Shown here one piece after another: positions 11,727 through 59,630 of a stretch of DNA of 64,000 nucleotides. The stretch's first letter is position 1; each line of letters starts with the position of its first letter. Below the pieces are notes generated by a model. It worked only from the letters and a program-made list of their open reading frames with translations, was not told where the DNA came from and ran no database searches. The position numbers were made by a program, and so were the translations under genes. The stretch comes from Micrococcales bacterium. GTDB lineage: Bacteria > Actinomycetota > Actinomycetes > Actinomycetales > Cellulomonadaceae. The stretch lies in assembly GCA_009785115.1 (NCBI GenBank), contig WQWY01000005.1:62001-126000 (forward strand), read 5' to 3'.

Positions 11727-11729
11727 GTC

Positions 11730-34095: not shown

Positions 34096-34539
34096 GTGTC
34101 GATCAGACGTCACCCTGAGGCCGCGACCGTCGTGCGGCGCCGAGACCGACGCGGCCGGGGGCTGCGCGGGCCGTTGATGCCGCAGTCCCTGCCCGCCTAC
34201 CGCACCCGTGCCGAGCGTTTCGACGCCCTGGTGCTCGACGCTGTCGAGGTGCTCGAACGCCGCTGGGCCGACCAGCTCGACGGCGTGGAGTTCGCGGTCG
34301 AGGAGGTCCCACCCAGCACGCCCGCCCCGTGGGAGACCGGCATCCCGCTGGGCCGCTGCTTTCCCGCCGACGCCGGGCAGGCTGATCGCGTCGTCGTCTA
34401 CCGCCGGCCCCTGGAGACCAGGGCACACGATGCCGACGACCTGGCCGACCTGGTGCACGACGTCGTCGTGGAGCAGGTCGCCCACCTGCTCGGGCGCGCC
34501 CCGGAAGACGTCGACCCCGGCTACGGGCAAGACCGTTGA
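34096..34539 (+). CDS. Metallopeptidase-like (zincin-fold) protein
   Basis: 147 residues of the small zincin-like family annotated as metallopeptidase. The fold pattern is clear (RFDALVLDAVEVLERRWADQLDGVEFAVEEVP... VVVYRRPLE ... DLVHDVVVEQVAHLLG), but the HExxH position reads EQVAH, so classic zinc catalysis is unlikely. The GTG 34096 has GAGGTGA upstream; a GTG at 34048, seven bases after a TACCCT hexamer, would be a leaderless alternative. It overlaps the next gene by 4 bases. Confidence 0.78.
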   Translation: MSIRRHPEAATVVRRRDRRGRGLRGPLMPQSLPAYRTRAERFDALVLDAVEVLERRWADQLDGVEFAVEEVPPSTPAPWETGIPLGRCFPADAGQADRVVVYRRPLETRAHDADDLADLVHDVVVEQVAHLLGRAPEDVDPGYGQDR

Positions 34540-35432: not shown

Positions 35433-35577
35433 ATCCGTGCACCGGCGAGGGGTGTACGGCGCGTGCGGTCGCGAGGCGGAGGAGGAGAGCAGCACTGGAG
35501 GTGCTGCCGACGACGACAACGCGGCGAACGTGCGTGCCGGGCGCGCCGTAGCGTGCAGGGGCTTACGGGACACGCCC
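35418..35577. repeat. Inverted repeat joining two convergent gene ends
   Basis: GGGCGTGTCCCGTAA (35418-35432) and its exact reverse complement (35563-35577) include the last codons and stop of both flanking genes. Similarity goes on inward with gaps: CC, TGCAC and TACGGCGCG recur in the same order in both arms for about 45-55 bases. The centre (about 35475-35525) is unrelated. It could fold as a large bidirectional terminator or be the scar of an inverted duplication. Confidence 0.8.
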
Positions 35578-37278: not shown

Positions 37279-40200
37279 CGGTGCACCCTTCGACGCAGCG
37301 GCACAGCAGCGACCAGCGCGACCGCGCCTACCGCGGCCTGCACCCCCAGCCAGAGCGACGAGGCCTGGTCAGCCCCGTGCACCACGAGCCGTCCTGAGGC
37401 ACCGGCGGGGACGGTGAAGCCCTGACGCCATCCCACCGCCGCCGCGTCGAGCCGCTCCCCGTCGAGCCACGCCCCCCAGCGTGCCCCGGAGCGCTCGGCC
37501 AGCACGAGCGTGCGGTCGGCATCGGCAGGGTCGACGGTCGTGGCGACGCTCCGACCGTCGCTGGGGAGCACGGTCGTCTCGGCGGGTGCGGCGACGTCGG
37601 CCGTGACGAGCCTGGCCCACCCGGTGACCACCGGATGATCGGCAAGGGCGGGCGTGGCCACGCGCCACAGCGTGCCGACGCGTTGGTCGGTGACCCGCTC
37701 CAGGCCGGGCGTCGCGTCGAGACGGCCCAGCAGCTCGGCCCGGGCCCGCGCCTGCGCACCGGTGGGCGACGAAGCCTCGGGCAGCGAGGGGACCTGGACG
37801 TAGGCGACCCCGAGGGCCCCCAGAGCGGCGGACACGTCCGCGCTCGAGCCGGTGACCAGCGCGGCCACCGTCGTCTCCAGCTCGCGCGTCGCGTCGTCCC
37901 GCACCGCCGCGGTCGCGCCGTCCCGCACCTCGGCCATCTGGACCCCGTCGGCGCCGAGCAGCCGGTAGCGCGTCGGCTCCGCGTCACGAGACACAGCGTC
38001 ATGAGGCACCACGTCATGACCCGCGAGGACCATGAGAACCCTCGAACCCTGCGGGAACGCCTGCTGGCCGACCGCGGGGACCACCGGGCCGGTGACGGCG
38101 CGCACCTGCACGCCCTCCCCGCCGCGCGCCTGCCACACCCAGGAGGCAGCCCCGAGGCCGGCGAGCGACACCGCGAACGCGACCAGCCCCGCGACGAGCG
38201 GCTGACGCCACCCGGAGCGACGCTCGGACCACCGGGCCACGGCACGGTCGGCCCCGACCAGCGCCGCGGCGAGGAACCCGAGGTGGGCGAGCGCGACAGA
38301 CGGCCCGAGGAACACCGTCCCCACCTGCCCTGCCGCGTGGGTCGCCGGGAGCGCGACGAGCACGGTGGCCCAGAGCAGCCCCAGCGCGGCCACGACCCAC
38401 GCGAGCCGTGCTGCCCGGCCGCCGACCACCAGGCCGACGACGGCGACCACGAGAACCACCGCACCGCTCAGGCCAGGCCACCCACCGGCGAGCGCCGTGG
38501 GCACCCAGGGCGGGACCATGATCTCTACCGCCTGCGTCGGCACCCCCAGCAGACGCTGCACCGGGCCCGCCGGGTCCGCGACCTGGGCCAGCCCGGGGTC
38601 CGCCAGCAGCTGGTACCACCCGTCCGCGCCGCGCCGTGCCGCGTCGACCAGCAGCGGCCCGAGCAGCACCAGCCCCGGCACAGCGGCCAGGAGCAGCCTG
38701 ACGCGGCCGGTCGCCAGAGCGAGGACGACCAGCACCACCAGGCACGGGAGCACCAGCGAGGGCGCTCCCGCGCAGACGGCGGCCAGCACCAGGCTGGTCG
38801 CGGCCAGCGCCGCACCAGACCCCCGTGCCGCCCGGACGAGGCCGAACGCCGCCCAGGGGGCCAGCACGTGGACGAGCACGGCACCGACCCGGCCGGAGCC
38901 GACCGCCACGAGCAGGCTCGGTGCCAGGGCCCAGACCAGCGCGGCCCACACGCGCAGCGCGAGCGAGCGGGTCGCCGCTCCCGCCGCGACCCAGGCGCCC
39001 CAGCCCGCCGCCACGACCCCCCCGAGCAGCAGCCCGGCGACCACGACGCCGACGTCTCCGCCGACAGGCACGGACAGCACGGCCAGCACGCGCACCAGCG
39101 GCTCGCCCACCCCTGGCTGCCCGAGACCGCCGAAGACCCAGTCGCTGGTCGCCGCGGACCACGTCTGGGCCCAGGTGCTGGGGGCGAAGGCGAGCGCCCC
39201 GCCGGCCAGGCGCGCCCCCGACAGCACGGGAGCGACCAGAGAGCCCAGCGCCGCCACGGTGAGCGCCGAGAGCCCGACGAGCAGCCCGGCCAGGACGGCC
39301 CGGCGCCGAGCGGCCTGCCGTGCCCGCTCGAGCCTCGTCCGCTCCGCCACCTGAGGGGCGTCCTTTCGACGCGCACGGCGCCGTCTGTCGGCCGACTGGT
39401 CCCAGACCTGACGCCAGGTGGCCTGCAGCGGCCGCAGCGCGCGCCGGGGCAGCACCGACGCCCGGGCCAGGCGACGGCGCGCGGCGAGCACCGCCCGGGG
39501 CCTGACGAGAGCCCCCCAGCCACCGGCCAGCTCCGCGGAAGCGCGGTCCGGCTGCGACCCCACGAGCCGACCCAGCGCCCGCACCGGCGCCGCGAGCAGC
39601 GCGGCCACCATGACGAGCGGCAGAACCCACCAGGGCGCGGCGACCAGGCGGGCATGGACCTGCGAACGGCGCCTGGCCGCGAAGGAGCGGCGCGGGTCAC
39701 CAGCCTCGGGCGCGACGCGGAGCCCGTGGTAGGAGGCCTGCGCGTGGCGCACGACGGCCTGCGGCACCACGACCACCCGGTGCCCGGCCAGGCGGGCCCT
39801 GCGCGACAGGTCGAGCCCGTCGCCGAAAGGCCCCAACGCGGGGTCTGTCCCGCCGAGCCCCTGCCACACGTCGCGCCGCACCAGGGCACCGGCGATGCCG
39901 ACCCCGAGCACGTCGGTCGCGCCGTCGTGCTGCCCCTGGTCCAGCTCACCGGGCACCACCGCGCTGACCCGGCGCCCGGAGCGAGTGGTCGTCAGCCCCA
40001 CCTCGACCAGACGCTCGGGCTCTGTCCAGGTGCGTTGCTTGGCCCCGGCCACCGCGACCGATGTCGCCTGACCGACCGCGCGCACCAGCTCGGCCAGGGC
40101 GTCGGGTGCCGGCGCGGAGTCGTCGTGCAACAACCACAGCCAGGTGGTCGGAGCCTGCCCGGCGCCGGCGAGCCGTGCCAGCCCGACGCTCACCGCGGCC

Positions 40201-40469
40201 CCGAAACTGGTCGCGGAGACCCGGGTGCGCGCGGTGCGCACGCCGGCGACGGTGAGGAACGCGTCGTCCAGCAGGGCCGGGGCACCGGCGGGGCCGCCGA
40301 CGTCGACCAGGAGCACGTGCGCCGGGCGGCGGGTCTGCGCGGCCAGGGCGTGCAGGGTCCGCTCCAGGTAGGGCGTGACCCCGGCGGTCACCAGCACCGC
40401 CGTGACGTCGGCGGGCGCCGAGCCCAGGGTGGTGGTGGCTTCTGGCTCGGTGAGGTCGGCAGCGGTCAT
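37275..40469 (-). CDS. Glycosyltransferase family 2 fused to a polytopic membrane protein
   Basis: 1064 residues. The N-terminal GT2-like domain (20-270) has LLVDVGG, TTWLWLLHDDSAPAPDAL and a FGDGLDLSRRARLAGHRV motif. Then come a basic linker, about 12-14 membrane helices (390-800), an extracytoplasmic domain and a final C-terminal helix (1040-1057). It is probably a cell-envelope glycan or lipid-linked sugar enzyme; the acceptor is unknown. It lies between whiB and DUF5719 in one minus-strand unit. Confidence 0.8.
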   Translation of the reverse strand: MTAADLTEPEATTTLGSAPADVTAVLVTAGVTPYLERTLHALAAQTRRPAHVLLVDVGGPAGAPALLDDAFLTVAGVRTARTRVSATSFGAAVSVGLARLAGAGQAPTTWLWLLHDDSAPAPDALAELVRAVGQATSVAVAGAKQRTWTEPERLVEVGLTTTRSGRRVSAVVPGELDQGQHDGATDVLGVGIAGALVRRDVWQGLGGTDPALGPFGDGLDLSRRARLAGHRVVVVPQAVVRHAQASYHGLRVAPEAGDPRRSFAARRRSQVHARLVAAPWWVLPLVMVAALLAAPVRALGRLVGSQPDRASAELAGGWGALVRPRAVLAARRRLARASVLPRRALRPLQATWRQVWDQSADRRRRARRKDAPQVAERTRLERARQAARRRAVLAGLLVGLSALTVAALGSLVAPVLSGARLAGGALAFAPSTWAQTWSAATSDWVFGGLGQPGVGEPLVRVLAVLSVPVGGDVGVVVAGLLLGGVVAAGWGAWVAAGAATRSLALRVWAALVWALAPSLLVAVGSGRVGAVLVHVLAPWAAFGLVRAARGSGAALAATSLVLAAVCAGAPSLVLPCLVVLVVLALATGRVRLLLAAVPGLVLLGPLLVDAARRGADGWYQLLADPGLAQVADPAGPVQRLLGVPTQAVEIMVPPWVPTALAGGWPGLSGAVVLVVAVVGLVVGGRAARLAWVVAALGLLWATVLVALPATHAAGQVGTVFLGPSVALAHLGFLAAALVGADRAVARWSERRSGWRQPLVAGLVAFAVSLAGLGAASWVWQARGGEGVQVRAVTGPVVPAVGQQAFPQGSRVLMVLAGHDVVPHDAVSRDAEPTRYRLLGADGVQMAEVRDGATAAVRDDATRELETTVAALVTGSSADVSAALGALGVAYVQVPSLPEASSPTGAQARARAELLGRLDATPGLERVTDQRVGTLWRVATPALADHPVVTGWARLVTADVAAPAETTVLPSDGRSVATTVDPADADRTLVLAERSGARWGAWLDGERLDAAAVGWRQGFTVPAGASGRLVVHGADQASSLWLGVQAAVGAVALVAAVPLRRRVHR

Positions 40470-40535: not shown

Positions 40536-40862
40536 CTAGACGACGCGACGCCGCAGCCTGCGCCGCTCTCGCTCCGAGAGCCCGCCCCAGATCCCGAAGC
40601 GCTCGTCGTTGGCCAGGGCGTACTCCAGGCAGTCGGCCCTGACCTCGCACCCGGTGCAGACCCTCTTGGCCTCACGGGTCGACCCGCCCTTCTCGGGGAA
40701 GAACGCCTCGGGGTCGGTCTGCGCGCACAGGGCACGCTCCTGCCAGCCCATGGGGCCCAGGTCGTCGGCATCGAACAGGGAGAGCACGTCTGCGAGCGGC
40801 GAGACGCTCGGCTGCTCAGGGACGTCGGACACGAGGTCGTCGTCATCGAGCAGGTCCCACAT
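40536..40862 (-). CDS. WhiB-family iron-sulfur regulator (WhiB2-like)
   Basis: 108 residues. Four cluster-binding cysteines: ALC (46), then RVCTGC (69 and 72) and DC (78), followed by the GIWGGLSERERRRLRRR turn and basic helix that contact sigma factor and DNA. The long acidic N-terminus (DLLDDDDLVSDV) and the position beside cell-wall genes suit WhiB2, which controls septation. The ATG at 40862 has GGAGG six bases upstream. It has a strong promoter of its own. Confidence 0.93.
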   Translation of the reverse strand: MWDLLDDDDLVSDVPEQPSVSPLADVLSLFDADDLGPMGWQERALCAQTDPEAFFPEKGGSTREAKRVCTGCEVRADCLEYALANDERFGIWGGLSERERRRLRRRVV

Positions 40863-40894
40863 GGTCCACCTCCAGCGCGCGCCTACCACCCGTC

Positions 40895-40933
40895 TCGATA
40901 TCGAATTACACGCGTGTCGTTCCTCCACGTCAA
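40895..40933 (-). promoter_or_regulatory. Promoter of the whiB gene with two palindromes
   Basis: TTGACG (40933-40928), 17-bp spacer, TGTAAT (40910-40905): a near-consensus housekeeping promoter, rare in this GC-rich window. Two perfect 10-bp palindromes flank and overlap the -10: ACACGCGTGT (40908-40917) and TCGATATCGA (40895-40904). Either could be an operator. A run of six A lies further upstream. Confidence 0.65.
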
Positions 40934-40970
40934 GTCGGAGTGTGCTAATCGCCCGTTTTTTCCTGAGTGA

Positions 40971-41267
40971 GACCCCCGGCACCTGACCTCCGGGAGAACG
41001 CTGGCTGGTCTTCGGGGGGAGCGCCGTCCTCTGCGGTGGCCTGGTGCACGATACGCGGTCCTCGCGGCGCTCCCCCGGTCGGGGCCCCACCGAGAGCTGA
41101 GGGTCGCGGGGCCCGCCGCCGTGACCCTCACGGACCTGCTCGCGCTGGGCGTCCTGGCCGACGGCGGGTCGCTCGTCCTGGTCCACCACGACCTCGCCGC
41201 GGCGCGGCCTGGTCCTGAGCGCGACCGGCTGGCCGCCGTCGAGCAGGTGACGTCGACCGGCGGGTGA
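40971..41267 (+). pseudogene. Remnant resembling the C-terminus of TIGR03089-family proteins
   Basis: A frame open from the stop at 40968 to TGA 41265-41267 has no ATG and only one late GTG (41121). Its end, LLALGVLADGGSLVLVHHD...[12 protein letters not shown], resembles from memory the last part of TIGR03089 proteins (an AMP-ligase-like actinobacterial family often found near this rhamnose/WhiB locus). The first 150 or more residues would be missing. It could also be a chance frame. Confidence 0.35.
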
Positions 41268-42197: not shown

Positions 42198-43388
42198 TCA
42201 GGGCACGTCCGCCTGGACGAGGCGCCCGTGGCCGTGCACGCTGACCGATCCGCCCCCCGCCGCGGCGAACACCGCCTCGCCCCGGGTCATCACCAGCTCG
42301 TCGTCCCCCTGCACGACGGTCACCTCGCCCTCGAGGCACAGCAGCACCCGTGGTCCGGACCCCGGCAGCTCGCACCCCACGTCGTCGGTGCCGTCGAGCG
42401 TGGTCACCGACAGCTCGAAGTCGTCCACCGGCGCGTAGAACACCAGCGTGCTGGTCCTGTAGGTCTCGGGCGCGATCCTGATCGGCGGCGCCGCGACGTA
42501 GTCGACGTTGCGCAGCACCTCCGCCACGTCCACGTGCTTGGACGTCAGCCCGGCCCGCAGCACGTTGTCGGAGTTGGCCATGATCTCGACACCGACACCG
42601 CTCAGGTACGCGTGCAGCCCGCCCGCGGGCACGAACAGCGCCTCCCCCGGCCGCAGGCTGACCGGATTGAGCAGCAACGAGCTGACCACCCCAGGGTCTC
42701 CCGGGTACTCCTCGTGCAGGCGCACCACGGTGGCGTCGCCGCGCGGAGAGGGTGAGCTCTCAGACGACAACCGTGCCCGGCACGCCTGCGCGAGCTCGGC
42801 GATCTCCTCAGGCCCCGGCTGGAGCCCGGTCGTCATCAACCGGGTGAAGACCGTCTCGATCCCCCGTGACCCCGGGTTCGACCTCAGCACCTCGTGGATG
42901 CCGCGCGCCAGGGGGGTCTCCAGACCGGCGAACAGCTCGGCGGCGCGCCGGGGAGCCCTGAACCCGCACACCGCCTCGAGCGGGGTGAGGGCGAACACGA
43001 GCTCTGGCTTGTGGTTGCGGTCCTTGTAGCTGCGTCGCTGGGCGTCTCTCGGGACGCCTGCCAGCTCCTCCTCCTCGAAGCCCGCCTGGGCTCGGGCGAG
43101 CTGCGGGTGCACCTGCAACGAGAGCGGCCGGGCGACGGCGATGACCTTCAGCAGGTAGGGCAGCTGGGCACCGAAGCGGTCGACCACGTCGGCACCGAGC
43201 GCGTGCTCGGGGTCGTCGGCGATGACCGCGTCCAGGCCGCGACCGTCGCGCAGCAGCGCGGGGGCGAGCGCGTGCGCCCCGAACCACGCCTCGGCGAGCG
43301 GGCCCTCGACGTCGAGGCCGAGGATCGCCTGGAGGGCAGAGACCGACCCCCACGGGTACGACTGGACGGCAGGACTGATGCGGATCAC
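42198..43388 (-). CDS. manA: Mannose-6-phosphate isomerase, class I
   Basis: Interconverts fructose-6-phosphate and mannose-6-phosphate, the entry to GDP-mannose. 396 residues. Zinc-site motifs: LQVHP (Gln and His), HKPELVFAL (Glu), and the third His in [12 protein letters not shown]. It has a GTG start and converges tail-to-tail with rmlA. It is divergent from gmd, whose pathway it feeds. Confidence 0.95.
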
Positions 43389-43546: not shown

Positions 43547-44638
43547 GTGACGACCGAGGAGACACGCCGCGCCCTCATCACGGGCATCACCGGCCAAGAC
43601 GGCAGCTACCTGGCTGAGCTGCTCCTGATGAAGGGGTACGAGGTGCACGGGCTGATCCGTCGCGCCTCGACCTTCAACACCTCTCGCATCGACCACCTCT
43701 ACCGTGACGAGCACGAGCAGGGGACACGGCTGTTCCTCCACCACGGAGACCTCACCGACGGCTCGCGCCTGGCCGTCCTCCTGGACGCCATCCGGCCGCA
43801 CGAGGTCTACAACCTGGCAGCGCAGTCTCATGTCAGGGTCTCGTTCGACGAGCCGGAGCACACCGGGGAGGCCACGGCCATGGGGTCCACCCGGCTGCTC
43901 GAGGCCATCCGCATGGTGAACCTCGACTGCCGCTACTACCAGGCCTCGTCGTCGGAGATGTTCGGGGCGACGCCTCCCCCGCAGAGCGAGTGGACACCGT
44001 TCTACCCGCGCTCGCCCTACGGCGCCGCCAAGGTCTACGCGTACTGGATGACGAAGAACTACCGCGAGGCCTACGGCATGTTCGCCGTCAACGGCATCCT
44101 GTTCAACCACGAGTCTCCCCGACGCGGCGAGACCTTCGTCACCCGCAAGATCACACGCGCGGTCGCGCGCATCCTCGCGGGCGAGCAGAAGGACCTCTAC
44201 CTGGGCAACCTCGACGCCGTCCGCGACTGGGGCTACGCGCCGGAGTACGTCGAGGCCATGTGGCGCATGCTCCAGCACGACGAGCCGAGCGACTACGTCG
44301 TCGCGACCGGGACCTCCGCCACCATCCGGGACTTCCTGTCTGCCTCGTTCGAGCACGTCGGGCTGGACTGGCGCAAGCACGTCAGGTTCGACGAGCGCTA
44401 CCTGCGCCCCACCGAGGTGGACGCGCTGATCGGTGACCCCCGCAAGGCGGAGCAGACGCTCGGCTGGAAGGCCAAGATCCACGCCGAAGACCTGGCACGG
44501 CTCATGGTCGACGCCGACGTGGAGGCGCTCGAGCACGCTGGGACCTCATGGGTCGACACCGTGCCGTGGTCGATGTTCGACGAGCTCCGGTACGGGCCCA
44601 CCAGCGCGGACCGGGCCGGCCTGGCCCCCGTTCTGTAG
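43547..44638 (+). CDS. gmd: GDP-mannose 4,6-dehydratase
   Basis: Converts GDP-D-mannose to GDP-4-keto-6-deoxymannose. 363 residues of the extended SDR family: NAD(P)-binding [15 protein letters not shown], the catalytic YGAAK lysine/tyrosine in [12 protein letters not shown], and the Gmd-specific [17 protein letters not shown]. The GTG 43547 has GAGGAGAG upstream. A TAGGGT hexamer at 43483-43488 may be its -10. The colD gene follows after 11 bases. Confidence 0.96.
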
Positions 44639-44649
44639 GGTCGCGTCCC

Positions 44650-45948
44650 GTGCCAGAAACCGTGACCCTGACATCCCCGCTCCAGTCCGCCGAGAGGCAG
44701 GCGGAGATCCGATCCCAGGTCGCCGGCCTCGTCAGCGAGTACTTCGACCTGATGCCGCAGATGCCTGCCGACGAGTGCCCGCTGTCGGTCCCGCTGTACG
44801 GGGCCGACGAGGTGAACGGCGCTCTGGACAGCCTCCTCACCCAGAACATCACGATGGGCGCCAAGGTCCGTCAGTTCGAGAAGGCCTTCGCCGAGCACGT
44901 CGGCTCGCGTCACGCCGTCATGGTCAACAGCGGCTCCTCGGCGAACCTGCTGGCTCTGGCGGTCTTGTCCGACCCGAGCGTCCCCGGTGGCCTACGTCCG
45001 GGCGACGAGGTCATCGTGCCAGCCGTCACCTGGTCGACCACGCTGGCGCCGATCCTTCAGCACGGCTGCGTCCCGGTGCTGGTCGACATCGACCCGAAGA
45101 CCCTCAACCTGCGACCCGAGGACCTCGAGGCCGCCCTGTCGCCCAAGACCCGGGCGATCATGCCTGTGCACCTGCTGGGCAACCCGGTCGCCATGGGACC
45201 GCTCATGGAGCTGGCCGAGCGCCACGACCTGTGGGTCGTGGAGGACACCTGCGAGTCGCTCGGCAGCACCTTCGAGGGCCGCGCTGTCGGCACCTTCGGT
45301 GACATGGGCACCTACTCCTTCTTCTTCTCCCACCACATCACGACCATCGAGGGAGGGATGCTGGTCACCGACGACGACCGGCTCGCGGACCTCGCGAGGT
45401 CCATCCGCGCCCACGGCTGGACCCGGGACATGGCGCAGCGGGACAAGCTCGAGGCCGCCAACCCCTCGATCGACCCCCGTTTCTTGTTCGTTCACGTCGG
45501 CTACAACCTGCGGCCGATGGAGATCTCCGCGGCCTTCGGCCTCGTCCAGCTGCAGCGCCTCGAAGAGTTCAACGAGCAGCGGCGTGCGAACGTCGCCTAC
45601 CTCGCGGCCGCGCTGGACGACCTGCGCGACGAGATCGCGCTGGTCACCGAGCAGCCGGGCGGGCGCTCGACCTGGTTCGGGTTCACGGCCATCACCAAGG
45701 ACTCCTCCACGCGCCTCGCGCTCAGCGAGCACCTGGAGTCCCGAGGCATCGCGACCCGTCCCATCGTGGCCGGCAACCTCGCGGTGCAGCCCGCCTTCCG
45801 CGACAACCCGCACCGGCTCGTCGGTGATCTCGCGAACGCCACGGCGGTCGGAGAGCGTGGGCTCTTCGTCGGCAACCACCCCAACCTGACACCGGCCCAC
45901 CTCGACCACATCGTCGCCGGGTTCCGCAGCTTCTTCGACCGGGCCTGA
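44650..45948 (+). CDS. colD: GDP-4-keto-6-deoxymannose 3-dehydratase (ColD type)
   Basis: A PLP enzyme that removes the 3-OH of GDP-4-keto-6-deoxymannose, the first committed step to colitose-type 3,6-dideoxyhexoses. 432 residues of the DegT/DnrJ/EryC1 fold. The PLP lysine is replaced by histidine, H228 in SFFFSHHITTIEGG; this is the hallmark of ColD (H188 in E. coli) and excludes ordinary sugar aminotransferases. Other ColD-like stretches are TMGAKVRQFEKAFAEHVGS, VPAVTWSTTLAPI, IRAHGWTRD, GYNLRPMEISAAFG and GIATRPIVAGN. There is no four-cysteine set as in iron-sulfur E1/RfbH enzymes. An N-terminal extension of about 45 residues exceeds E. coli ColD. Confidence 0.9.
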   Translation: MPETVTLTSPLQSAERQAEIRSQVAGLVSEYFDLMPQMPADECPLSVPLYGADEVNGALDSLLTQNITMGAKVRQFEKAFAEHVGSRHAVMVNSGSSANLLALAVLSDPSVPGGLRPGDEVIVPAVTWSTTLAPILQHGCVPVLVDIDPKTLNLRPEDLEAALSPKTRAIMPVHLLGNPVAMGPLMELAERHDLWVVEDTCESLGSTFEGRAVGTFGDMGTYSFFFSHHITTIEGGMLVTDDDRLADLARSIRAHGWTRDMAQRDKLEAANPSIDPRFLFVHVGYNLRPMEISAAFGLVQLQRLEEFNEQRRANVAYLAAALDDLRDEIALVTEQPGGRSTWFGFTAITKDSSTRLALSEHLESRGIATRPIVAGNLAVQPAFRDNPHRLVGDLANATAVGERGLFVGNHPNLTPAHLDHIVAGFRSFFDRA

Positions 45949-45962
45949 GACAGGCCTTTTGT
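45942..45962 (+). terminator. Intrinsic terminator of gmd-colD
   Basis: GGCCTG-AGA-CAGGCC followed by TTTTGT: a 6-bp GC stem, 3-base loop and U-run. The colD stop codon lies inside the stem. It is the most classical terminator in the window and makes gmd-colD a closed unit. The 255 bases after it (45963-46218) show no gene; a TAGTGT hexamer near 46064 may start the next transcript. Confidence 0.85.
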
Positions 45963-46218
45963 CCCGCTATGACCGCAGACCAGACCTGCGGGGCTCGTCC
46001 GCGCCCTCTCGAGCCCGAAAGAGTCAGCGAGCCCTCGCGCTGCGGCTCGTGCGGGATGAAGCTAGTGTCGAAGACGCCCGCAAGGCCTGTCGAGACGCCG
46101 GCCGCGAGGCCGACTCGTCGGACGGGTGCCTGACAGCCGCAGCCGTGGTCTCGCCATCGAGGCCGCGCGGCGGAGGCTCTACCCGAGACCACACACGTAC
46201 CGGAACCAGGAGCAGGAC

Positions 46219-47025
46219 ATGACCTCTGACAAGATCCTCGTCGTCATGGCGTCCCTCGGCGACCGTCTCGACACCTTGCGCGAGGCGCTCGCCTCCGTCG
46301 ACGCCCAGCGCGCCGAGGTCGACCTCCGGCTGGTGGTCGTGCTCCCGGCCGGCACCGACGAGGCGGCCGCCCTGGCTCGCGAGCACGGCGCTGACATCGT
46401 CGAGGACCGTCGCCTCGGGATCTTCGAGGCGATCAACACCGGCATCCAGGCCGCCCGCGACGAGACGTACTACGCGGGGCTCGGCGACGACGACCTGCTC
46501 CGACCGCACGCTCTGCTCCGGCTGCGCACGCTCTTCGAGCAGAACCCCAAGGCGGTCGTCACCTACGGCGCCTGCGAGTACATCACGGGCGACGGCAGGC
46601 TCTTGCACCGTTCGGCGCCTGGCCGCCTCGCCCCGTGGCTGATGACCTGGGGCCCGAACCTGCTGCCGCACCCTGGCGCGCTGGTCCGGCTGGACGCCAT
46701 GCGCGAGGTCGGTCTCTTCAAGCCCGAGCTGAAGTACTCCGCCGACCTCGACATGTGGTTGTCGCTGCGTCACCTCGGCCCGTTCGCGAGCACCCGACAG
46801 CCTGTCTCCGCGTTCCGCTGGCACCCCGACTCGTTCACCGTGTCCAGCCAAGGGGCGTCCGCCGCGGAGTCCGCCGTGACCAGGCGTCGCCACCTGTCGA
46901 GGTGGGCACGGCCGTTCGCGCCCCTCTGGGAACGTCCCGTGCTGTGGGCCTCAGCACGAGCCGCCGCGTCCCGGGCCAACCAGGCCGCGCAGCGACCGTC
47001 GGATCGGTCGTCCGTCGCACGGTGA
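46219..47025 (+). CDS. Glycosyltransferase family 2
   Basis: 268 residues with a GT-A fold: ILVVMASLGDRLDTLREAL at the start, the metal motif YAGLGDDDLLRPHALL (about 91-106), an acceptor-side LLPHPGALVRLDAM, and SADLDMWLSLRHLG. WcaA-like glycan transferase; sugar and linkage are unknown. Placed between colD and the reductase gene, it is a good candidate to transfer the dideoxy sugar. The ATG at 46219 has AGGAG eight bases upstream. Confidence 0.85.
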   Translation: MTSDKILVVMASLGDRLDTLREALASVDAQRAEVDLRLVVVLPAGTDEAAALAREHGADIVEDRRLGIFEAINTGIQAARDETYYAGLGDDDLLRPHALLRLRTLFEQNPKAVVTYGACEYITGDGRLLHRSAPGRLAPWLMTWGPNLLPHPGALVRLDAMREVGLFKPELKYSADLDMWLSLRHLGPFASTRQPVSAFRWHPDSFTVSSQGASAAESAVTRRRHLSRWARPFAPLWERPVLWASARAAASRANQAAQRPSDRSSVAR

Positions 47026-47072
47026 CCGCTGTCCTGAGCGGCCTGTCGTCGACCCCGTCGGTAGAGTGCCTC

Positions 47073-47219
47073 ATGAGCGAGCCGAAGCTACCGTGGCCTT
47101 ACCGTGGTGATGATGACGCAGAAGGGCTGATCGATGCTGGTCGACAAGACGGCGACGACCTTCGTCGCCGGGCACCGTGGGCTGGCCGGGTCGGCGATCT
47201 GGCGACGCCTGGAGACTGA
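47073..47219 (+). CDS. Possible leaderless upstream ORF overlapping the reductase gene
   Basis: A 48-codon frame (MSEPKLPWPYRGDDDAEGLI...) begins at ATG 47073, five bases after a TAGAGT hexamer (47062-47067), so an mRNA from that promoter would start at about this codon. It overlaps the reductase start (47134) out of frame by 86 bases. It may be a leader peptide or simply the 5' end of the leader. Confidence 0.3.
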   Translation: MSEPKLPWPYRGDDDAEGLIDAGRQDGDDLRRRAPWAGRVGDLATPGD

Positions 47220-48081
47220 GGGCTGGACCGACCTGGTGGGCCGGACGCAAGACCGGCTCGACCTGCTGGACAAGCCGGCTGTCGATGCGTTCTTCGACGA
47301 GGTCCGGCCCCAGACGGTCGTCATCGCCGCGGCGAAGGTCGCTGGTATCGGGGCGAACGACGCCCACCCCGCCGAGTTCATCTCCGAGAACCTGCGCATC
47401 CAGCTCAACCTCATGGACGCCGCGGCGCGCACGCGCACGCCACGGCTGCTGTTCATCGGCTCCGCGGTCGTCTACCCCGAGACCGCACCGCAGCCGATCA
47501 CCGAGGACCGCCTGCTGACCGGCCCTCTCGAGCCGGCCAACACCGCCTACGGGATGGCGAAGATCGCAGGGATCGCCCACCTGCAGGCCGTCCGTCGCGA
47601 GCACGGGCTGGCCTGGGTCAGCGCCATGCCGACCAACCTGTACGGCCCGGGCGCCAACTTCGCTCCGGGCAGGTCTCACGTCGTGCCTTCCATGGTCCGC
47701 CGCTACGTCGAGGCCGTGGAGGACGGGATGACGACGGTGACCCACTGGGGGTCGGGACGGCCACGCCGCGACGTGCTGCATATCGACGACCTCGCCAGCG
47801 CGGTGGCGCACCTGCTGGAGCGCTACGACGACGACTCCCCCGTCAACGTCGGCACCGGCACCGACCACACCATCGCCGAGATGGCCGACCTGGTCGCCCA
47901 GGCGGCTGGCTACACCGGCCAGACGGGCTGGGACACCTCCCACCCTGACGGCACCGCCCGCCGCCTGCTCGACATCACCCGACTCACCGCCACAGGCTGG
48001 CAGCCTAAGATCGGGCTCGACGAGGGACTGACCTCGACCGTGGCCTGGTACCGCCAGCACCGGTCCCAGGCCCGAGCCTGA
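47134..48081 (+). CDS. GDP-fucose/colitose-synthase-like reductase lacking the epimerase cysteine
   Basis: 315 residues of the SDR family closest to GDP-L-fucose synthase (Fcl/WcaG) and ColC. Seen: VAGHRGLAGSAI cofactor loop, AAAKVAGIGAN, PQPITEDRLLTGPLEPAN, catalytic S110, Y139 and K143 (YGMAK), MPTNLYGPGANF, and H182 in SHVVPSMVRR. The stretch GSSCIYP of E. coli Fcl reads GSAVVYP here, so the cysteine (C109) that acts with the histidine in C3/C5 epimerisation is Val112. Reduction at C4 should still work. With ColD upstream, the substrate is probably GDP-4-keto-3,6-dideoxymannose. AAGGG lies eight bases before the ATG. Confidence 0.85.
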   Translation: MLVDKTATTFVAGHRGLAGSAIWRRLETEGWTDLVGRTQDRLDLLDKPAVDAFFDEVRPQTVVIAAAKVAGIGANDAHPAEFISENLRIQLNLMDAAARTRTPRLLFIGSAVVYPETAPQPITEDRLLTGPLEPANTAYGMAKIAGIAHLQAVRREHGLAWVSAMPTNLYGPGANFAPGRSHVVPSMVRRYVEAVEDGMTTVTHWGSGRPRRDVLHIDDLASAVAHLLERYDDDSPVNVGTGTDHTIAEMADLVAQAAGYTGQTGWDTSHPDGTARRLLDITRLTATGWQPKIGLDEGLTSTVAWYRQHRSQARA

Positions 48082-48102: not shown

Positions 48103-48771
48103 ATGTACGACGACACCTGGCTGGTCGTGCCGCTCTTCAACGAGGCCCAGGTGATCGCTGACGTGATCACCGAGGCCCGCAGGACCTTCCCGAAGATCGT
48201 GTGCGTCGACGACGGGAGCGGGGACGACTCGGCCGCCCGGGCGCGAGCAGCGGGCGCGGTCGTCGTCCAGCACCCGATCAACCTCGGGCAGGGCGCCGCC
48301 CTGCAGACGGGCTTCAGCTACGCGCTCCAAGACCCAGCCATGCAGTACGTCGTGACGTTCGACTCCGACGGCCAGCACCAGGTCTCCGACGCGGAGGCGA
48401 TGGTGGAGCGTCTGCGCCAGAAGGACGTCGACGTCGTGTTCGGTTCACGGTTCCTCGACGCCCGCACGAAGCCCGGCCTGCTGAAGCGGCTGGTGCTGCG
48501 TGTGGCCACCGGGATGTCGAACCTCTTCACCCGTACCCGTCTGACCGACGCGCACAACGGTCTCCGTGCGCTCAACCGCACGGCTCTGACCAGCATCCAG
48601 ATCCGCCAGAACCGCATGGCGCACGCGTCGGAGATCGTCGCCCAGGTCGCGAAGTCGAAGCTGCGCTACACCGAGGTCCCGGTGCACGTGCTCTACACGG
48701 AGTACTCACGTGCCAAGGGCCAGTCGATCTGGAACTCGGTGAACATCCTCACCGAGCTCCTCTACCGATAG
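48103..48771 (+). CDS. Glycosyltransferase family 2 (polyprenyl-phosphate sugar transferase type)
   Basis: 222 residues. A DPM1/GtrB-like GT2: LVVPLFNEAQVIADVI, CVDDGSGDDS, NLGQGAALQTGF, the DSDGQHQ metal motif, and FGSRFLD. Such enzymes load a sugar onto polyprenyl phosphate. No C-terminal helices are present; the next gene (DUF2304) probably supplies the membrane part. GAGGAG lies four bases before the ATG. Confidence 0.9.
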   Translation: MYDDTWLVVPLFNEAQVIADVITEARRTFPKIVCVDDGSGDDSAARARAAGAVVVQHPINLGQGAALQTGFSYALQDPAMQYVVTFDSDGQHQVSDAEAMVERLRQKDVDVVFGSRFLDARTKPGLLKRLVLRVATGMSNLFTRTRLTDAHNGLRALNRTALTSIQIRQNRMAHASEIVAQVAKSKLRYTEVPVHVLYTEYSRAKGQSIWNSVNILTELLYR

Positions 48772-48780
48772 GGCCGCGCC

Positions 48781-49200
48781 ATGTGGATCAAGATCCTCAT
48801 CATCGTCGTGCTGTTCGCCGTCGTGGCCGTGATGCTCCGCGCCCAGGGGTCGCGAAACCTCGCGCTCCGACGGATCTCCATCGTCGTGTTCACCGTCGCG
48901 GCAGCGGCGTCCGCGATCTTCCCGGACGTGTGGAGCACCATGGCCGACGCTCTCGGCGTCGGCCGGGGCACCGACCTGCTCCTCTACCTGTTCATCATGG
49001 TGACGCTCGCGTTCATCGCCGCGACCTATCTACACTTCCGCAGCGTCGAGGCGCAGATCACCCAGCTCGCACGAAGGATCGCCCTCGACGAGGCAGGCTT
49101 TCCTGCGCAGCCTGGCCCGACGAGCGACCAGGCCTCGACCGGCGACAGAGCAGAGACAGCGAGAGCCGACGATCTCGGGAGCGGTCAGCCGACCGGCTGA
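48781..49200 (+). CDS. DUF2304 membrane protein
   Basis: 139 residues with helices at 3-19, 30-48 and 67-84, then YLHFRSVEAQITQLARRIAL and a polar tail. DUF2304 genes regularly follow GT2 genes of the type at 48103 and probably anchor or flip their product; this pairing is known, the mechanism is not. It lies 9 bases after its partner. Its end overlaps the convergent galE by 16 bp. Confidence 0.88.
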   Translation: MWIKILIIVVLFAVVAVMLRAQGSRNLALRRISIVVFTVAAAASAIFPDVWSTMADALGVGRGTDLLLYLFIMVTLAFIAATYLHFRSVEAQITQLARRIALDEAGFPAQPGPTSDQASTGDRAETARADDLGSGQPTG

Positions 49201-50159
49201 TGCTGGTGCTGCCAGGCGCTCCACGCGTCGGGGAGGATCTGGTCGAGCGTGCGCTGCGCACGCCAGCCGAGGGTCTCGGTGATCGCTGCGGGGTCGGCGA
49301 CGACGACGGCGGGATCCCCCTGCCGCCGCGGGGCCATCTCGGGCTCGACGACGATCCCTGAGGCCGTCATGAGCCCGTGGACCACGTCGAGCACCGAGGC
49401 TCCGTGCCCGGTCCCGACGTTGAGCACGGCCCAGGGGTGGGTGTCGAGGCAGGCGAGCGCGGCGATGTGTGCCTCGGCCAGGTCCATCACGTGGATGAAG
49501 TCCCTGACGCACGTCCCGTCCGGCGTCGGATAGTCGTCGCCGAACACCATCGGCGGGCGTCCGTCGGCCAGACGTTCGAGCACCATGGTGACCAGGTTCG
49601 CGACGGCCGGGTCACCCAGGTCCGGCCAGCCAGCGCCGGCCACGTTGAAGTACCGCAGAGCCACACCCCGCAGGCCCCAGGCGGTGCCCGCGTCCCGGAT
49701 CAGCCACTCGCCGACCAACTTGGTCCAGCCGTAGGGGTTGACCGGTTCGGTCGGGCCCGTCTCGGCGATCTGAGCCCCCTGCGGAGAGCCGTACACCGCC
49801 GCCGAGGAGGAGAACACGACCCTGTCGACGTCGGCGGCACGCATCGCGTCGAGCAGGTTGGTCAGGCCACCGACGTTCTGCGCCGCGTACCAGGTGGGCC
49901 GCTGCACCGACTCCGGCACGCTCTTGCGCGCCGCGAAGTGGATGACGTCGGTGACACCGTGGCTCACCATCGTCTCGGTCAGCACCCCGACCGACGGCGG
50001 GGCGGCGACGTCCAGCCGCACGAGCGGAGCACCACCCACCCTGTCCGCAGAACCCGTCGACAGGTCGTCCACCACGACGACGTCTCGGCCCGACTGCTGG
50101 AGCAGCCTGACCACGTGCGCCCCGATATACCCCGCGCCACCGGTGACCAACACTGACAT
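49185..50159 (-). CDS. galE: UDP-glucose 4-epimerase
   Basis: Interconverts UDP-glucose and UDP-galactose for glycan synthesis. 324 residues: VTGGAGYIGAHV, FSSSAAVYG serine, the YGWTK catalytic Tyr/Lys, RYFNVAGA, and DYPTPDGTCVRDFIHVMDLAEAH, all typical of GalE. ATG start at 50159. Confidence 0.94.
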   Translation of the reverse strand: MSVLVTGGAGYIGAHVVRLLQQSGRDVVVVDDLSTGSADRVGGAPLVRLDVAAPPSVGVLTETMVSHGVTDVIHFAARKSVPESVQRPTWYAAQNVGGLTNLLDAMRAADVDRVVFSSSAAVYGSPQGAQIAETGPTEPVNPYGWTKLVGEWLIRDAGTAWGLRGVALRYFNVAGAGWPDLGDPAVANLVTMVLERLADGRPPMVFGDDYPTPDGTCVRDFIHVMDLAEAHIAALACLDTHPWAVLNVGTGHGASVLDVVHGLMTASGIVVEPEMAPRRQGDPAVVVADPAAITETLGWRAQRTLDQILPDAWSAWQHQHQPVG

Positions 50160-50200: not shown

Positions 50201-51535
50201 TCAGGTAGCGCTCTCGGCCGAGACGTGGCTCTTGTCGACCATCACGATGATGAACGCCACGACGCCGCGGGTCAGGACGGCACCGACCAGGGCCCAGGCG
50301 GCACCGGTCATGCCCAGCGGGCCGATGAGGACGGCACACAGGACGAGAGCGACGAGGGTAGAGCTGATGCTCAGCGTCAGACCGTGGGCATACCGGTTGA
50401 GGACCGACACCGAGATCATGCTGAAGAAGGCGAACGGCAGCGCCACGATGGCCAGACCGAGCGGGACGGCCTGGGCCAGACCGAGCGTGTAGTCCTTGGG
50501 GAAGACGACAGGCAGCGCCCACGCCGCCAGCACCATGCCCACAGCCGTCCCGGGGATGTAGACGGCCGTCCAGCGGAGGATCGTCCGCACCAGCTCCGAC
50601 CGCAGCGCGCCGTCGACCAGACGACGACGGGCCGTGGGGATCCACGCCTGGGCGGCGGCACCCGTGGCGAGGTCGGCCAGGGCGTACAGGTAGAGCAGCA
50701 CCGCGAAGTGCGCGGCGACCGCCGGGCCGTGCCACGGCGTGAGGAAGTACTGAGGCATCGTCGAGACCAGAGCGATCGCCGCGACCGTGACGCCGCTCGG
50801 CAGCCCGGCCATGACGATCGTGCGGCGGGTGGCCGACCCCTCGGACCACAGGCCGGTGCTCACCCCGACCTTGCGAACCGGCAGATACATGACGACGAAC
50901 GTCGCCAGCACCGCCGAGACGGCCAGCCCGGCGAGAGCGAGGTTCAGGGAACGGGTAGCGAACATGATGGTGGCGGCGACGCCGACGGTGACCACCACCG
51001 TGGCGACGGCTGCCCCGAAGACGCGCGGTATGCGATCGGTGAGCTGGAGGGGCCCGGTCAGCGTGTCGGCGAACATGTCGGCCATCTTCGCCACCCCGAC
51101 CAGGAGCAGGGTGAGGACGAAAGCGCCAGGCACGCTCGGCTCGAGACCGACCGTCCCGACGACGACCGCGATCGCGGCGAGCACGACGAAGGCCAGGGTG
51201 AGAGAGACGCCCTGGACGAGAGCGTAGTCCTTGATCGGAGCGTTGGGGCGCAGCGTGACGTAGACCGTGCGCAGACCCAGCTGGGCAAAGCCGAAGAGGG
51301 GCGTCGCGATGGCCAGGGCCAAGGTGTAGTACCCGACGGTGGCCTGGTCGAAGACCCGGGCGAAGAAGAGGAGGAGAAGGAGAAGACCGACGTTGCGGAC
51401 CACCGCAGCCCCGAACAGCAAGCCCGCCGACCGCACCATGTATGTGCCTGCTCTCCAGTCGATGCGAGGGCGACCGACCTCGGCATACCGCCCCGTCCAC
51501 GTGTCCTCTGGCTGGAGCACACTGTATTGCCTCAC
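50201..51535 (-). CDS. Polysaccharide flippase, Wzx/MATE type
   Basis: 444 residues with about 12 predicted helices, beginning GLLFGAAVVRNVGLLLLLLFFARVF. The alternation of hydrophobic segments with short Arg/Lys loops, and the place in a glycan locus, fit the Wzx family that flips undecaprenyl-linked repeats. The GTG at 51535 gives a 30-residue polar leader before helix 1; the ATG at codon 33 (MVRSAG) is an alternative. It lies 41 bases from galE on the same strand. Confidence 0.85.
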   Translation of the reverse strand: MRQYSVLQPEDTWTGRYAEVGRPRIDWRAGTYMVRSAGLLFGAAVVRNVGLLLLLLFFARVFDQATVGYYTLALAIATPLFGFAQLGLRTVYVTLRPNAPIKDYALVQGVSLTLAFVVLAAIAVVVGTVGLEPSVPGAFVLTLLLVGVAKMADMFADTLTGPLQLTDRIPRVFGAAVATVVVTVGVAATIMFATRSLNLALAGLAVSAVLATFVVMYLPVRKVGVSTGLWSEGSATRRTIVMAGLPSGVTVAAIALVSTMPQYFLTPWHGPAVAAHFAVLLYLYALADLATGAAAQAWIPTARRRLVDGALRSELVRTILRWTAVYIPGTAVGMVLAAWALPVVFPKDYTLGLAQAVPLGLAIVALPFAFFSMISVSVLNRYAHGLTLSISSTLVALVLCAVLIGPLGMTGAAWALVGAVLTRGVVAFIIVMVDKSHVSAESAT

Positions 51536-51639
51536 CGATCTGCTCGATCACGGTCGGCGCCACGACGATGATCCCCGCGTCGGGTTCTCGAGACGGTGGC
51601 GACCGTCGTCAGGTCGCCGGTCACCGGTACGGTCGCCTC

Positions 51640-52797
51640 ATGAGGTTCGTCTTCTTCTCGGCACAGCACCTGCCGACGATCGGTGGTGTCGAGTACTACA
51701 CCGACAGCCTCGCCCGGGCGCTAGCACGCCTGGGGCACGAGGTGACAGTGGTGACGAGCCTGCTGCCAGAGACAGCCGCTCGCGAGCAGGTGGACGGCAT
51801 CGAGGTGGTGCGGCTCCCGTCGTGGATGTGGCTCAAGGGACGGTATCCGGTCCCCCGCCCGGGTCGAGCCTCTCGGGCGATCATGGACCAGGTTCTCTCG
51901 GAGCCGGTCGATCTCGCCATCATCAACACACGATTCTGGGCTCTGTCTCTGTGGGCGGCCCGCCGTTGCGGACGCCGTGGCCTGCCGATGGTCGTCATCG
52001 AGCACGGAGCTGGCTGGCTGACGCTGGGCCACCCGATCCTCGACCGGGCCGTGCGGCTCTACGAGCGATGGGGGCTGCGCTGGATGCGTCGCTCTGGTGC
52101 CCCCTTCTACGCCGTGTCCGAGGCAGGGACCTCATGGCTGCGATACCTGGGAGTGCATCCGTCAGGGGTGCTGTCGAACGCCGTCGACGGAGCAAGGCTG
52201 CGTGGCGTGGTAGCCCAGCCCGGGTGGGACGTGCGCACCGAACTGGGGATCTCGAGGAACGCCCCGCTCGTCGCGTTCGCAGGCCGGATGATCCCCGAGA
52301 AGGGTCTCCGAGAGCTCGTCGCGGCCATAGCGCTGCTGCGCCAGACACGACCTGACGCCGTCCTGGTCGCAGCAGGTGACGGGCCGCTGCTCGAAGAGCT
52401 CGAGGCTCGAGCCGCGACAGGGACATACTTCGTCGGGCCGCTCGGCCACGACCGCACGATGCGGCTGATCGCCCAGGCCGACCTGCTGTGCCTGCCGACC
52501 TACTCCGAGGGTTTCGGCGCGGTGGTCCTGGAGGCCGCTGTGCTCGGCACGCCGGTCGTGACCACCCCCACCGGAGTCGCACCCGAGATCGCCGTCGACA
52601 CCGACCACGGGCTTCTTCTGCCTGATCTCGAACCTGCCACCATCGCCTCTGCCTTGGACCGAGCGCTGGGCGACCCTGCCTGGCGACGGCGGGCGGGTGA
52701 GCTCAGTCAGACCAAGAGCTCGAGGTTCACCTGGCAGCACACAGCCGAACGAGTGGTCGCCATCGCGCACGAGCGCTCCGAAGACGGAACTTCCTGA
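51640..52797 (+). CDS. Glycosyltransferase family 4
   Basis: 385 residues with a GT-B fold: FFSAQHLPTIGGVEYYTDSLARAL at the N-terminus, AGRMIPEKGLRELVAAI, and the nucleotide-sugar motif LLCLPTYSEGFGAVVLEAAVLGTPVVTT (E-x7-E). Donor and acceptor unknown. The ATG 51640 is six bases after TACGGT (51628-51633) without a ribosome-binding site, so the mRNA is probably leaderless. It is divergent from the flippase gene. Confidence 0.9.
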   Translation: MRFVFFSAQHLPTIGGVEYYTDSLARALARLGHEVTVVTSLLPETAAREQVDGIEVVRLPSWMWLKGRYPVPRPGRASRAIMDQVLSEPVDLAIINTRFWALSLWAARRCGRRGLPMVVIEHGAGWLTLGHPILDRAVRLYERWGLRWMRRSGAPFYAVSEAGTSWLRYLGVHPSGVLSNAVDGARLRGVVAQPGWDVRTELGISRNAPLVAFAGRMIPEKGLRELVAAIALLRQTRPDAVLVAAGDGPLLEELEARAATGTYFVGPLGHDRTMRLIAQADLLCLPTYSEGFGAVVLEAAVLGTPVVTTPTGVAPEIAVDTDHGLLLPDLEPATIASALDRALGDPAWRRRAGELSQTKSSRFTWQHTAERVVAIAHERSEDGTS

Positions 52798-52943
52798 GGC
52801 CCGACCTGGACCGACGCGAGCCCGTCGCTCTCCGCTGACCCTACCGTCACTGGATCGTCACAAGAACCCCTCCCGGATCCCTGTCCAGAATGTCATGATT
52901 GTCCGTCGGGTGATGTGTCCGACGGCGACATGCTGGAGGGCCG

Positions 52944-54101
52944 GTGGCGAGCGACAGTCTTCTCGACGGCGACGAACCGACCGAAGCCTGGTCGCGAGAG
53001 CATCTCGTCCTGGCCGAAGCGACGGCATCAGAGGCCGACGGCCCCGCAGTCACCGTCGTCGTCCCCGCCTTCGACGTGGCTCCGTTCGTCGTCCGGTGCC
53101 TCGAGAGCGTCCGTGCCCAGACCTTGGCCGACCTCGAGTGCCTGATCGTGGAGGACTGCTCCACGGACGACACCCTGGCGGTGGTCGAGCACTGGCTGGC
53201 CACGACCGGCGACCGACGCTTCCGACTCGTCCGTCAGCCCAGCAACCAGGGTGTGGCGCTCGCCCGCAACACCGCTCTGCGTGAGGCCCGGGGACGCTAT
53301 GTCGCGTTCGTCGACTCTGACGACTGGTTCGACCCTGACTTCCTCGCTGTGCTGCACGAGCGCGCCGAGACCACAGGGGCGGACGTCGTCGGGTCGGGGT
53401 GGCGACGCCCGGGGCCAGACGGGAAGATCCACCAGCGAGTCAGCCCGAGAGGCAAGAACCGGTACTACGTCTTCCAGATCGGGGCCGTCTGGGCCAAGCT
53501 GCACCGGACCGACTTCCTCCGACGCCACCAGATCGAGTTCTACACCGACAACACCTACGCCGAAGATCTCTCCTTCGGCGCGCACGAGCTCGTCCACACC
53601 GACCGGATCGAGCTCGTCGACTACGTCGGCTACAACTACTTCCTCAACGAGACCAGCGTCTCGTTCCAGTCTCACCCGAGGTTCGGCCACCAGGGGCGAG
53701 ACCCGATCGTCTTCCTCGAGCACCTTCTCGCGCTGGAGTCCAGACCCGGGACGGTCGCGTTCGACCGGGAGCTGTTCCGCTACTTCTCCTACCGGGTCTT
53801 CTTCTCGTTCGTGCTCCTGTGCGGGAGGGGCTGGACCCCGGCTCAGCTCCTCGACCTCATCCGGCGCTTCGACACGTTCATGCTGAAGGCGTACGGCCCG
53901 ACCGCTCTCTGGCGCAACCGGTACCTGCCCTGGGGAGGGCCTGACGAGCCGCTCGTGGGGCGGACGATGATCGCCGGGGTCTGGCTGCTGCGCAGGCTCG
54001 GGCTGATGCCGGTCTTCGCCCGGCTCTACTGCCGGGCGCGACCCGCCGACCACGTGCAGGACGAGGCGACGACCATCCCCGCGACGGCTGTCGGCCGCTG
54101 A
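52944..54101 (+). CDS. Glycosyltransferase family 2
   Basis: 385 residues. GT-A domain from about 33: VTVVVPAFDVAPFVVRCLESVRAQ, IVEDCSTDDT, NQGVALARNTALREARG, and the metal motif AFVDSDDWFDPDFL. The C-terminal half (NRYYVFQIGAVWAKLHRTDFL...) matches CDP-glycerol or galactan-type GT2 extensions. The GTG start is preceded by GGAGGG. In the 146-base gap upstream, CCGTCGG/CCGACGG forms a 7-bp hairpin. Confidence 0.88.
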   Translation: MASDSLLDGDEPTEAWSREHLVLAEATASEADGPAVTVVVPAFDVAPFVVRCLESVRAQTLADLECLIVEDCSTDDTLAVVEHWLATTGDRRFRLVRQPSNQGVALARNTALREARGRYVAFVDSDDWFDPDFLAVLHERAETTGADVVGSGWRRPGPDGKIHQRVSPRGKNRYYVFQIGAVWAKLHRTDFLRRHQIEFYTDNTYAEDLSFGAHELVHTDRIELVDYVGYNYFLNETSVSFQSHPRFGHQGRDPIVFLEHLLALESRPGTVAFDRELFRYFSYRVFFSFVLLCGRGWTPAQLLDLIRRFDTFMLKAYGPTALWRNRYLPWGGPDEPLVGRTMIAGVWLLRRLGLMPVFARLYCRARPADHVQDEATTIPATAVGR

Positions 54102-54153
54102 GGCTGGCCACCGCCTGAACCCACCCAGAGGTCCTGGGTTCCGGTGCCATGGC

Positions 54154-58704: not shown

Positions 58705-58709
58705 CGGGA

Positions 58710-59564: not shown

Positions 59565-59598
59565 CGCCGACCTCCCCGACCTCCCGGACAACCGCCCC

Positions 59599-59630
59599 AG
59601 ACTAGACCCTGGAGCGGCACACCCTAGAGT
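59599..59630. promoter_or_regulatory. Divergent rmlD/rmlC promoter region
   Basis: Back-to-back -10 hexamers in the 105-base gap: TAGTCT reading towards rmlD (59604-59599) and TAGAGT reading towards rmlC (59625-59630). The -35 elements are not obvious. Shared control of both rhamnose genes is likely. Confidence 0.4.

Follow-up and report, generated by a model that had tools for sequence, protein, structure and literature searches.

Which activated sugar would be made by a short row of nucleotide-sugar genes in a cellulomonad? The row lies at 43547-48081 of the stretch analysed here (64,000 nucleotides of contig WQWY01000005.1, assembly GCA_009785115.1, from a Micrococcales bacterium of the Cellulomonadaceae; hereafter the window) and comprises gmd, a gene for a DegT-fold protein, a glycosyltransferase gene and a gene for a relative of GDP-fucose synthase (GFS). 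Judged from sequence, a GDP-3,6-dideoxyhexose pathway is very probably present, and as its end product we lean towards GDP-D-tyvelose rather than GDP-L-colitose. A preliminary description of the same DNA had listed gmd, a DegT protein with histidine in place of the pyridoxal phosphate (PLP) lysine, a family 2 glycosyltransferase (GT2) and a GFS-like reductase. This row is borne out by the open reading frames (ORFs) and profile scores, and the gene set, the histidine-type motif and the tree described below support the view that this actinobacterium has a pathway to a GDP-activated 3,6-dideoxyhexose. The proposed last step, a ColC leading to L-colitose, conflicts with a valine at the position of Cys109 of GFS; that the reductase lacks this catalytic cysteine had been overlooked.

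43547-44638, + strand: gmd, GDP-mannose 4,6-dehydratase (TIGR01472, 512.6 bits against a cut-off of 415; PF16363)
44650-45948, + strand: DegT-fold protein, putative pyridoxamine phosphate (PMP)-type 3-dehydratase, ColD-like, placed by the tree in a third clade (PF01041, 329.4 bits; GTG start)
45331-45333, + strand: codon for the His at the PLP lysine position (the first of the two in SHH; residue 231 in the frame from 44641; coordinate derived from the residue number)
46219-47025, + strand: GT2 glycosyltransferase (PF00535, 41.3 bits)
47134-48081, + strand: GFS-like C4 reductase, predicted to be non-epimerising (NCBIfam GDP-L-fucose synthase, 381.5 bits, below the cut-off of 500)
47467-47469, + strand: GTC (Val) codon at the position of the catalytic cysteine (Cys109 of Escherichia coli GFS; coordinate derived from the residue number)

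Each of the four ORFs is complete and rich in GC at third codon positions. In the proposed pathway, Gmd would convert GDP-mannose to GDP-4-keto-6-deoxy-D-mannose, from which the histidine-type DegT enzyme, using PMP and an amino donor but no Fe-S cluster, would remove the 3-hydroxyl as ColD does to give GDP-4-keto-3,6-dideoxy-D-mannose; the GFS-family protein would then reduce C4 only, leaving C5 uninverted. The configuration at C4 is the same in D-mannose and L-galactose, and when 4-keto-3,6-dideoxy-D-mannose is reduced to that configuration the result is tyvelose (3,6-dideoxy-D-arabino-hexose) without C5 inversion and colitose with it. A reductase that kept the C4 outcome of GFS and left C5 alone would thus yield GDP-3,6-dideoxy-D-arabino-hexose, that is, GDP-D-tyvelose. 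Each of these reactions, the stereochemistry at C4 and the incorporation of the sugar into a surface polymer such as a wall or capsule are predictions.

The dehydratase and its distribution

The best solved relatives of the DegT protein, searched with the longer frame starting at 44641, are ColD (PDB code 2gms; 294.8 bits) and E1 (CDP-4-keto-6-deoxyglucose 3-dehydrase, also known as RfbH; PDB code 3bcx; 288.9 bits). The first histidine of its SHHITTIEGG motif aligns with His188 of ColD (Lys or Asn in the mutant structures 2r0t and 3b8x), and the same position is lysine in the Lys-type relatives. With ColD (2gms, 3gr9) the protein has in common this histidine, the absence of Fe-S cysteines, a gmd neighbour and the stretches SHHI-T-EGG and RAHGWTR, and it is 42-45% identical to the seven ColD-type proteins compared; an N-terminal stretch absent from ColD aligns with E1. 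With E1 it shares the fold family, the histidine and a similar length, but E1 has four cysteines in the Fe-S loop that follows the motif and the window's protein has none. This loop is devoid of cysteine in all 14 ColD-side rows, the window's included, and holds three or four in each of 46 E1-type rows.

Phylogeny favours placement of the protein on the ColD side. In a tree of 69 rows, built after removal of 14 of 83 (near copies or over-long), six actinobacterial rows including the window's form one clade (support 100/99), which joins a protein from a Haladaptatus plasmid and seven orthodox ColD sequences in one set (100/98), separate from 37 E1-type and 18 Lys-type rows; a tree of 33 rows, a subset picked by hand, agrees (98/92). 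The seven orthodox ColD rows make up a clade of their own (100/100), outside which the window's protein falls. The protein thus looks, from its motif and its place in the tree, like a PMP-type 3-dehydratase and not an aminotransferase; a sugar aminotransferase such as perosamine synthase is ruled out by the histidine in place of the PLP lysine together with the tree, and the phylogeny that the preliminary description had called for does not set it among the lysine enzymes. The identification as ColD held in part: the histidine and the missing Fe-S cysteines agree with it, whereas the protein belongs to a separate clade beside orthodox ColD. We predict 3-deoxygenation in the manner of ColD without classing the protein as ColD. 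The AlphaFold model (mean predicted local distance difference test score 63.7, with residues 205-239 below 50) was poor and was not used; that of the reductase reached 76.3.

The ColD-side placement has bootstrap values of 98-100, but approximately unbiased (AU) tests do not reject the E1 side (p = 0.17 and 0.09), which weighs against our reading. Together with the E1-like length and N-terminal region and the closeness of the bit scores (291 for E1, 299 for ColD, between which the protein lies), these tests could be taken to mean that the enzyme is of the E1 type, has a CDP- or dTDP-sugar as its substrate and stands beside gmd by chance. We give this very little credence: the Fe-S cysteines are missing, the NCBIfam RfbH profile scores 370 bits and its cut-off of 423 is not reached, and gmd is adjacent or close in six of the seven loci of the clade (the window, L035, L036, L037, L078 and L090, but not L038; L and G numbers denote the loci and genomes compared).

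The gene set recurs. A DegT gene of this kind stands together with gmd and fcl in Terrabacter tumescens JCM 1365 (L035), in the metagenome-assembled genome 'Cellulomonas sp. 73-92' (L037), in a second such genome (L036) and in G722 (L078), with gmd 76-83% identical to the window's, so the row in the window is not a chance arrangement. The source of L036 and G912 ('Micrococcales bacterium Th196P3bin61') is presumably a termite gut; G912 and G889 carry the same genus code as the window's genome, which is 2.48 Mb in size and 99.46% complete. Counting that genome, close relatives of the DegT protein are rare: at least 76% identity is reached in three of 200 genomes of the family, and two of 396 in the order match at 1e-100; in the class, 39 of 394 match at 1e-60, mostly E1-type among the matches listed. 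The family holds three kinds of 3-dehydratase, namely the window's, orthodox ColD (loci L082, L083, L085 and L160; genomes G903, G728, G817 and G896) and the E1 type. The orthodox ColD loci indicate that a gmd-ColC-ColD row in Gram-positive bacteria is real beyond the window. The E1/RfbH-type Fe-S dehydratases are those of six family members (L073, L075, L077, L162, L163 and L164), with E1 scores of 517-529 bits. A genome survey (PMC7725333) gives, in its accessible part, predicted L-colitose pathways by phylum and reports them absent from TACK archaea; the presence of such a pathway in the actinobacterial phylum may already be contained in its data.

Among plasmids (eight of 39 matching records examined), that of Haladaptatus (L090, 6031-9161) carries gmd, a short-chain dehydrogenase/reductase (SDR) gene and a histidine-type DegT gene whose product is 49% identical to the window's, possibly a haloarchaeal 3,6-dideoxyhexose cassette.

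The reductase and C5 inversion

The best solved relatives of the window's reductase are the E. coli GDP-fucose synthases. Like GFS and ColC it keeps the Ser-Tyr-Lys triad and His179, but the catalytic Cys109 is replaced by valine. The cysteine takes the C5 proton in GFS, so its replacement suggests that the reductase would only reduce C4. The codon, GTC, is two changes away from either cysteine codon and the neighbouring serine is alanine, which makes a single read error unlikely.

Across 71 reductase rows, Ser or Thr107, Tyr136, Lys140 and His179 are kept throughout, whereas Cys109 is present in 62 rows and missing from nine. Five of the losses stand beside a ColD-side dehydratase: the window (Val), L074 and L076 (Asn) and L071 and L072 (Ala). 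All four orthodox-ColD loci of the family lack the cysteine, which with the window's makes three separate losses. The family set (38 places less the partial L159 and less L137 and L140, identical over the compared stretch, leaving 35 rows) shows loss in five of seven dehydratase-linked reductases and in four of 28 unlinked ones (Fisher p = 0.006, kinship ignored). In a tree built without the motif columns there are four changes of cysteine state, three of them in linked lineages, and the starred branches force all four; the window's row pairs with a cysteine-bearing one (98/91). Across the class the residue was present in all 29 Fcl sequences read, out of 90 places besides the window's own (30 read out of 91 when the window's is counted).

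Would the pathway nevertheless end in GDP-L-colitose, if the GFS-like protein took the part of ColC and another group acted as the base for C5 inversion? The gene set of gmd, histidine-type DegT and GFS-like reductase and the retained His179 speak for this, as does the relatedness of E. coli ColC to GFS (40%); the sister row of G912, moreover, keeps the cysteine and is accompanied by no RMD-like gene (RMD, GDP-4-keto-6-deoxymannose reductase). Valine, however, is incapable of acting as a base, and the window's reductase is closer to E. coli Fcl (47% identity) than to ColC (29%). The cysteine is also kept in all six of the non-actinobacterial ColC-like genes that were read next to ColD (from E. 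coli, Chelatococcus, Sulfitobacter, Parasedimentitalea and two Paracoccus, one of the latter apparently frameshifted), a count that excludes Azospirillum L183, which has a ColD-like gene and no ColC within the stretch, and it is kept in an actinobacterial ColD locus from another family (L006/L087). In the human enzyme, according to the accessible part of PMC12362431, most C5 inversion is lost in the C116S variant, about 70% of whose product was reduced before inversion (named altro) and about 30% of which was GDP-L-fucose. Colitose is on these grounds an unlikely product.

Non-inverting members of the GFS family have been described. The accessible part of PMC7949155 presents Campylobacter DdahC (Thr/His) and MlghC (Tyr/Arg) as GFS relatives without the cysteine that reduce C4 without epimerisation, and introduction of a cysteine into DdahC brought no gain of epimerisation. 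Like them, the window's reductase is a GFS relative without the cysteine; they differ in acting on GDP-heptoses and in having separate epimerases. Their epimerases, DdahB and MlghB, partner GFS-like reductases in Campylobacter (same source), and a corresponding division of labour here would let an RmlC-type epimerase invert C5 before a cysteine-less reductase completed GDP-L-colitose. One such gene occupies 59661-60281, and the genome contains another at a separate site. We consider this route quite improbable, because the rmlA gene in the window suggests that RmlC serves dTDP-rhamnose, and because only two of 13 other loci compared (L085 and L154) have RmlC, L154 being without such a dehydratase.

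Several observations count against GDP-D-tyvelose. No activity could be detected for the C116A variant of human GFS, and the C116S variant, about 440-fold slower, still gave its share of GDP-L-fucose (PMC12362431, accessible part), so loss of the cysteine could abolish activity. Four reductases (L155-L158, all with Ala) have lost it with no dehydratase link, so the loss is not confined to dideoxyhexose pathways; the independent-pairs test, with three pairs, is too small and shows nothing. The two RmlC-type epimerases could invert C5, and the open literature search found no record linking tyvelose with Cellulomonas and no report of it as a cell-wall sugar. The strongest objections are the inactive C116A variant and the G912 locus, considered below. 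The L155-L158 reductases (about 9400-10430), which have STA instead of SSC, are distantly related to GFS and represent a further branch without the cysteine.

The inactivity of C116A (PMC12362431, accessible part) also favours the possibility that the window's reductase is inactive, or that it acts on the Gmd product to give GDP-D-rhamnose, an unrelated reductase elsewhere finishing the dehydratase product. DdahC and MlghC are able to reduce GDP-4-keto-6-deoxymannose without epimerisation (PMC7949155, accessible part), and the Fcl of cysteine-bearing relatives may serve GDP-fucose, apart from the dehydratase. Yet the ORF is intact with its triad kept, the genome has no RMD-like gene and the cysteine has been lost repeatedly in dehydratase-linked reductases; we rate this alternative as improbable.

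Related loci and the transferase

In relatives the same C4 reduction is probably the task of an RMD-like reductase encoded next to the dehydratase. Downstream of the dehydratase gene, L035, L078 and L037 carry a family 4 glycosyltransferase (GT4) gene and an RMD-like SDR gene, and the best solved relatives of the L037 SDR are GDP-6-deoxy-mannose reductases (PDB codes 2pk3 and 6x3b). In L038 the SDR gene comes straight after that of the dehydratase; Haladaptatus L090 has gmd and a 33% relative of the SDR alongside the dehydratase, and no gene next to them is annotated as a GFS relative. The window's genome differs, having no RMD-like gene at 1e-20, nor have the four orthodox-ColD genomes of the family. 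Among nine loci of the window's order, three combine the SDR with a cysteine-bearing Fcl, five have a cysteine-less reductase and no SDR, none has the SDR with a cysteine-less reductase, and one, G912, is without the SDR and keeps the cysteine (Fisher p = 0.048 with G912 and 0.018 without it, kinship ignored). Read most simply, the two arrangements supply one common donor, whose synthesis leaves C5 uninverted. G912, with the same dehydratase, a cysteine-bearing Fcl and no RMD-like gene at 1e-20, does not fit tyvelose unless a gene is hidden beyond the end of its contig (L081), which is reached slightly less than 200 bases after the DegT gene.

The preliminary description had taken the intervening GT2 for the dideoxyhexosyltransferase, an assignment that the comparison of loci does not clearly support. 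GT2 relatives (44-57% identity) accompany gmd and fcl in L035, L037, L078 and L154, yet L154 (G890) has no match to the window's DegT protein at 1e-60, and the gmd-fcl-degT row of L036 is without GT2; the gene thus follows gmd and fcl, not the dehydratase. The different GT4 stands beside the dehydratase in three relatives and was not found in the window's genome (best match 32%, partial). A counterpart of the GT4 of the RMD-type loci, 76% identical, occurs in L082, where orthodox ColD stands with a cysteine-less reductase (one of four such loci). That the window's GT2 has taken over the GT4 role may be offered as a guess.

The L154 locus of the congener G890 (6373-7557, + strand, and 9492-15654) has a manA-rmlA-gmd-GT2-fcl arrangement like the window's and no histidine dehydratase; near its gmd and fcl lies a perosamine-synthase-like lysine enzyme (3dr7, 364.8 bits), possibly a natural exchange between an amino and a dideoxy sugar.

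The glycan region and the meaning of the locus

Two further genes would bear on the supply of GDP-mannose:

42198-43388, - strand: manA, mannose-6-phosphate isomerase (GDP-mannose supply; TIGR00218, 235 bits against a cut-off of 116.2)
31870-33294, - strand: phosphomannomutase/phosphoglucomutase-like (possible GDP-mannose supply; NF007088, 567.5 bits, below the cut-off of 618)

The manA gene also adjoins the cassette in L037, L085, L160 and L154. A genome search for GDP-mannose pyrophosphorylase with NF052502 gave nothing above the cut-off (the best score, 96.2 bits, was rmlA), and a scan for promoters and terminators gave no signal exceeding shuffles. Downstream of the cassette (48103-50159) are genes for a PpgS-like polyprenyl-phosphate glycosyltransferase (287 bits, cut-off 370) and a DUF2304 protein, and galE, a set that we take to resemble the Rv3631-Rv3634c region of Mycobacterium tuberculosis. 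Further glycosyltransferases and DUF5719, DUF6077 and DUF2142 proteins at 34536-40469 and 51442-63903 make up a large glycan region around the cassette, which also has WhiB (40536-41189) and the RmlC already mentioned. Elsewhere in the genome (L178, 1147-2271, + strand; G000 C11 near 82900), a nucleotidyltransferase resembling by eye glucose-1-phosphate cytidylyltransferase lies downstream of a class III aminotransferase-like ORF.

More broadly, we suggest tentatively, with confidence a little short of even, that cellulomonads and their relatives make GDP-D-tyvelose by way of a dehydratase clade beside ColD, with two routes to non-inverting C4 reduction: one by way of an RMD-like enzyme, the other through losses, more than once, of the catalytic cysteine from GDP-fucose synthase/ColC. 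The open literature search found no paper on GDP-tyvelose or like names. In its accessible part, the review PMC8987622 places 3,6-dideoxyhexoses in Gram-negative lipopolysaccharide; a route through GDP-sugars in actinobacteria would extend that range and would derive tyvelose directly from mannose without a C2 epimerase. If the suggestion is true, one residue decides between colitose and tyvelose, and the comparable loci, in which that position is Cys, Val, Ala or Asn, would offer a natural experiment on the change from an epimerase-reductase to a simple reductase.

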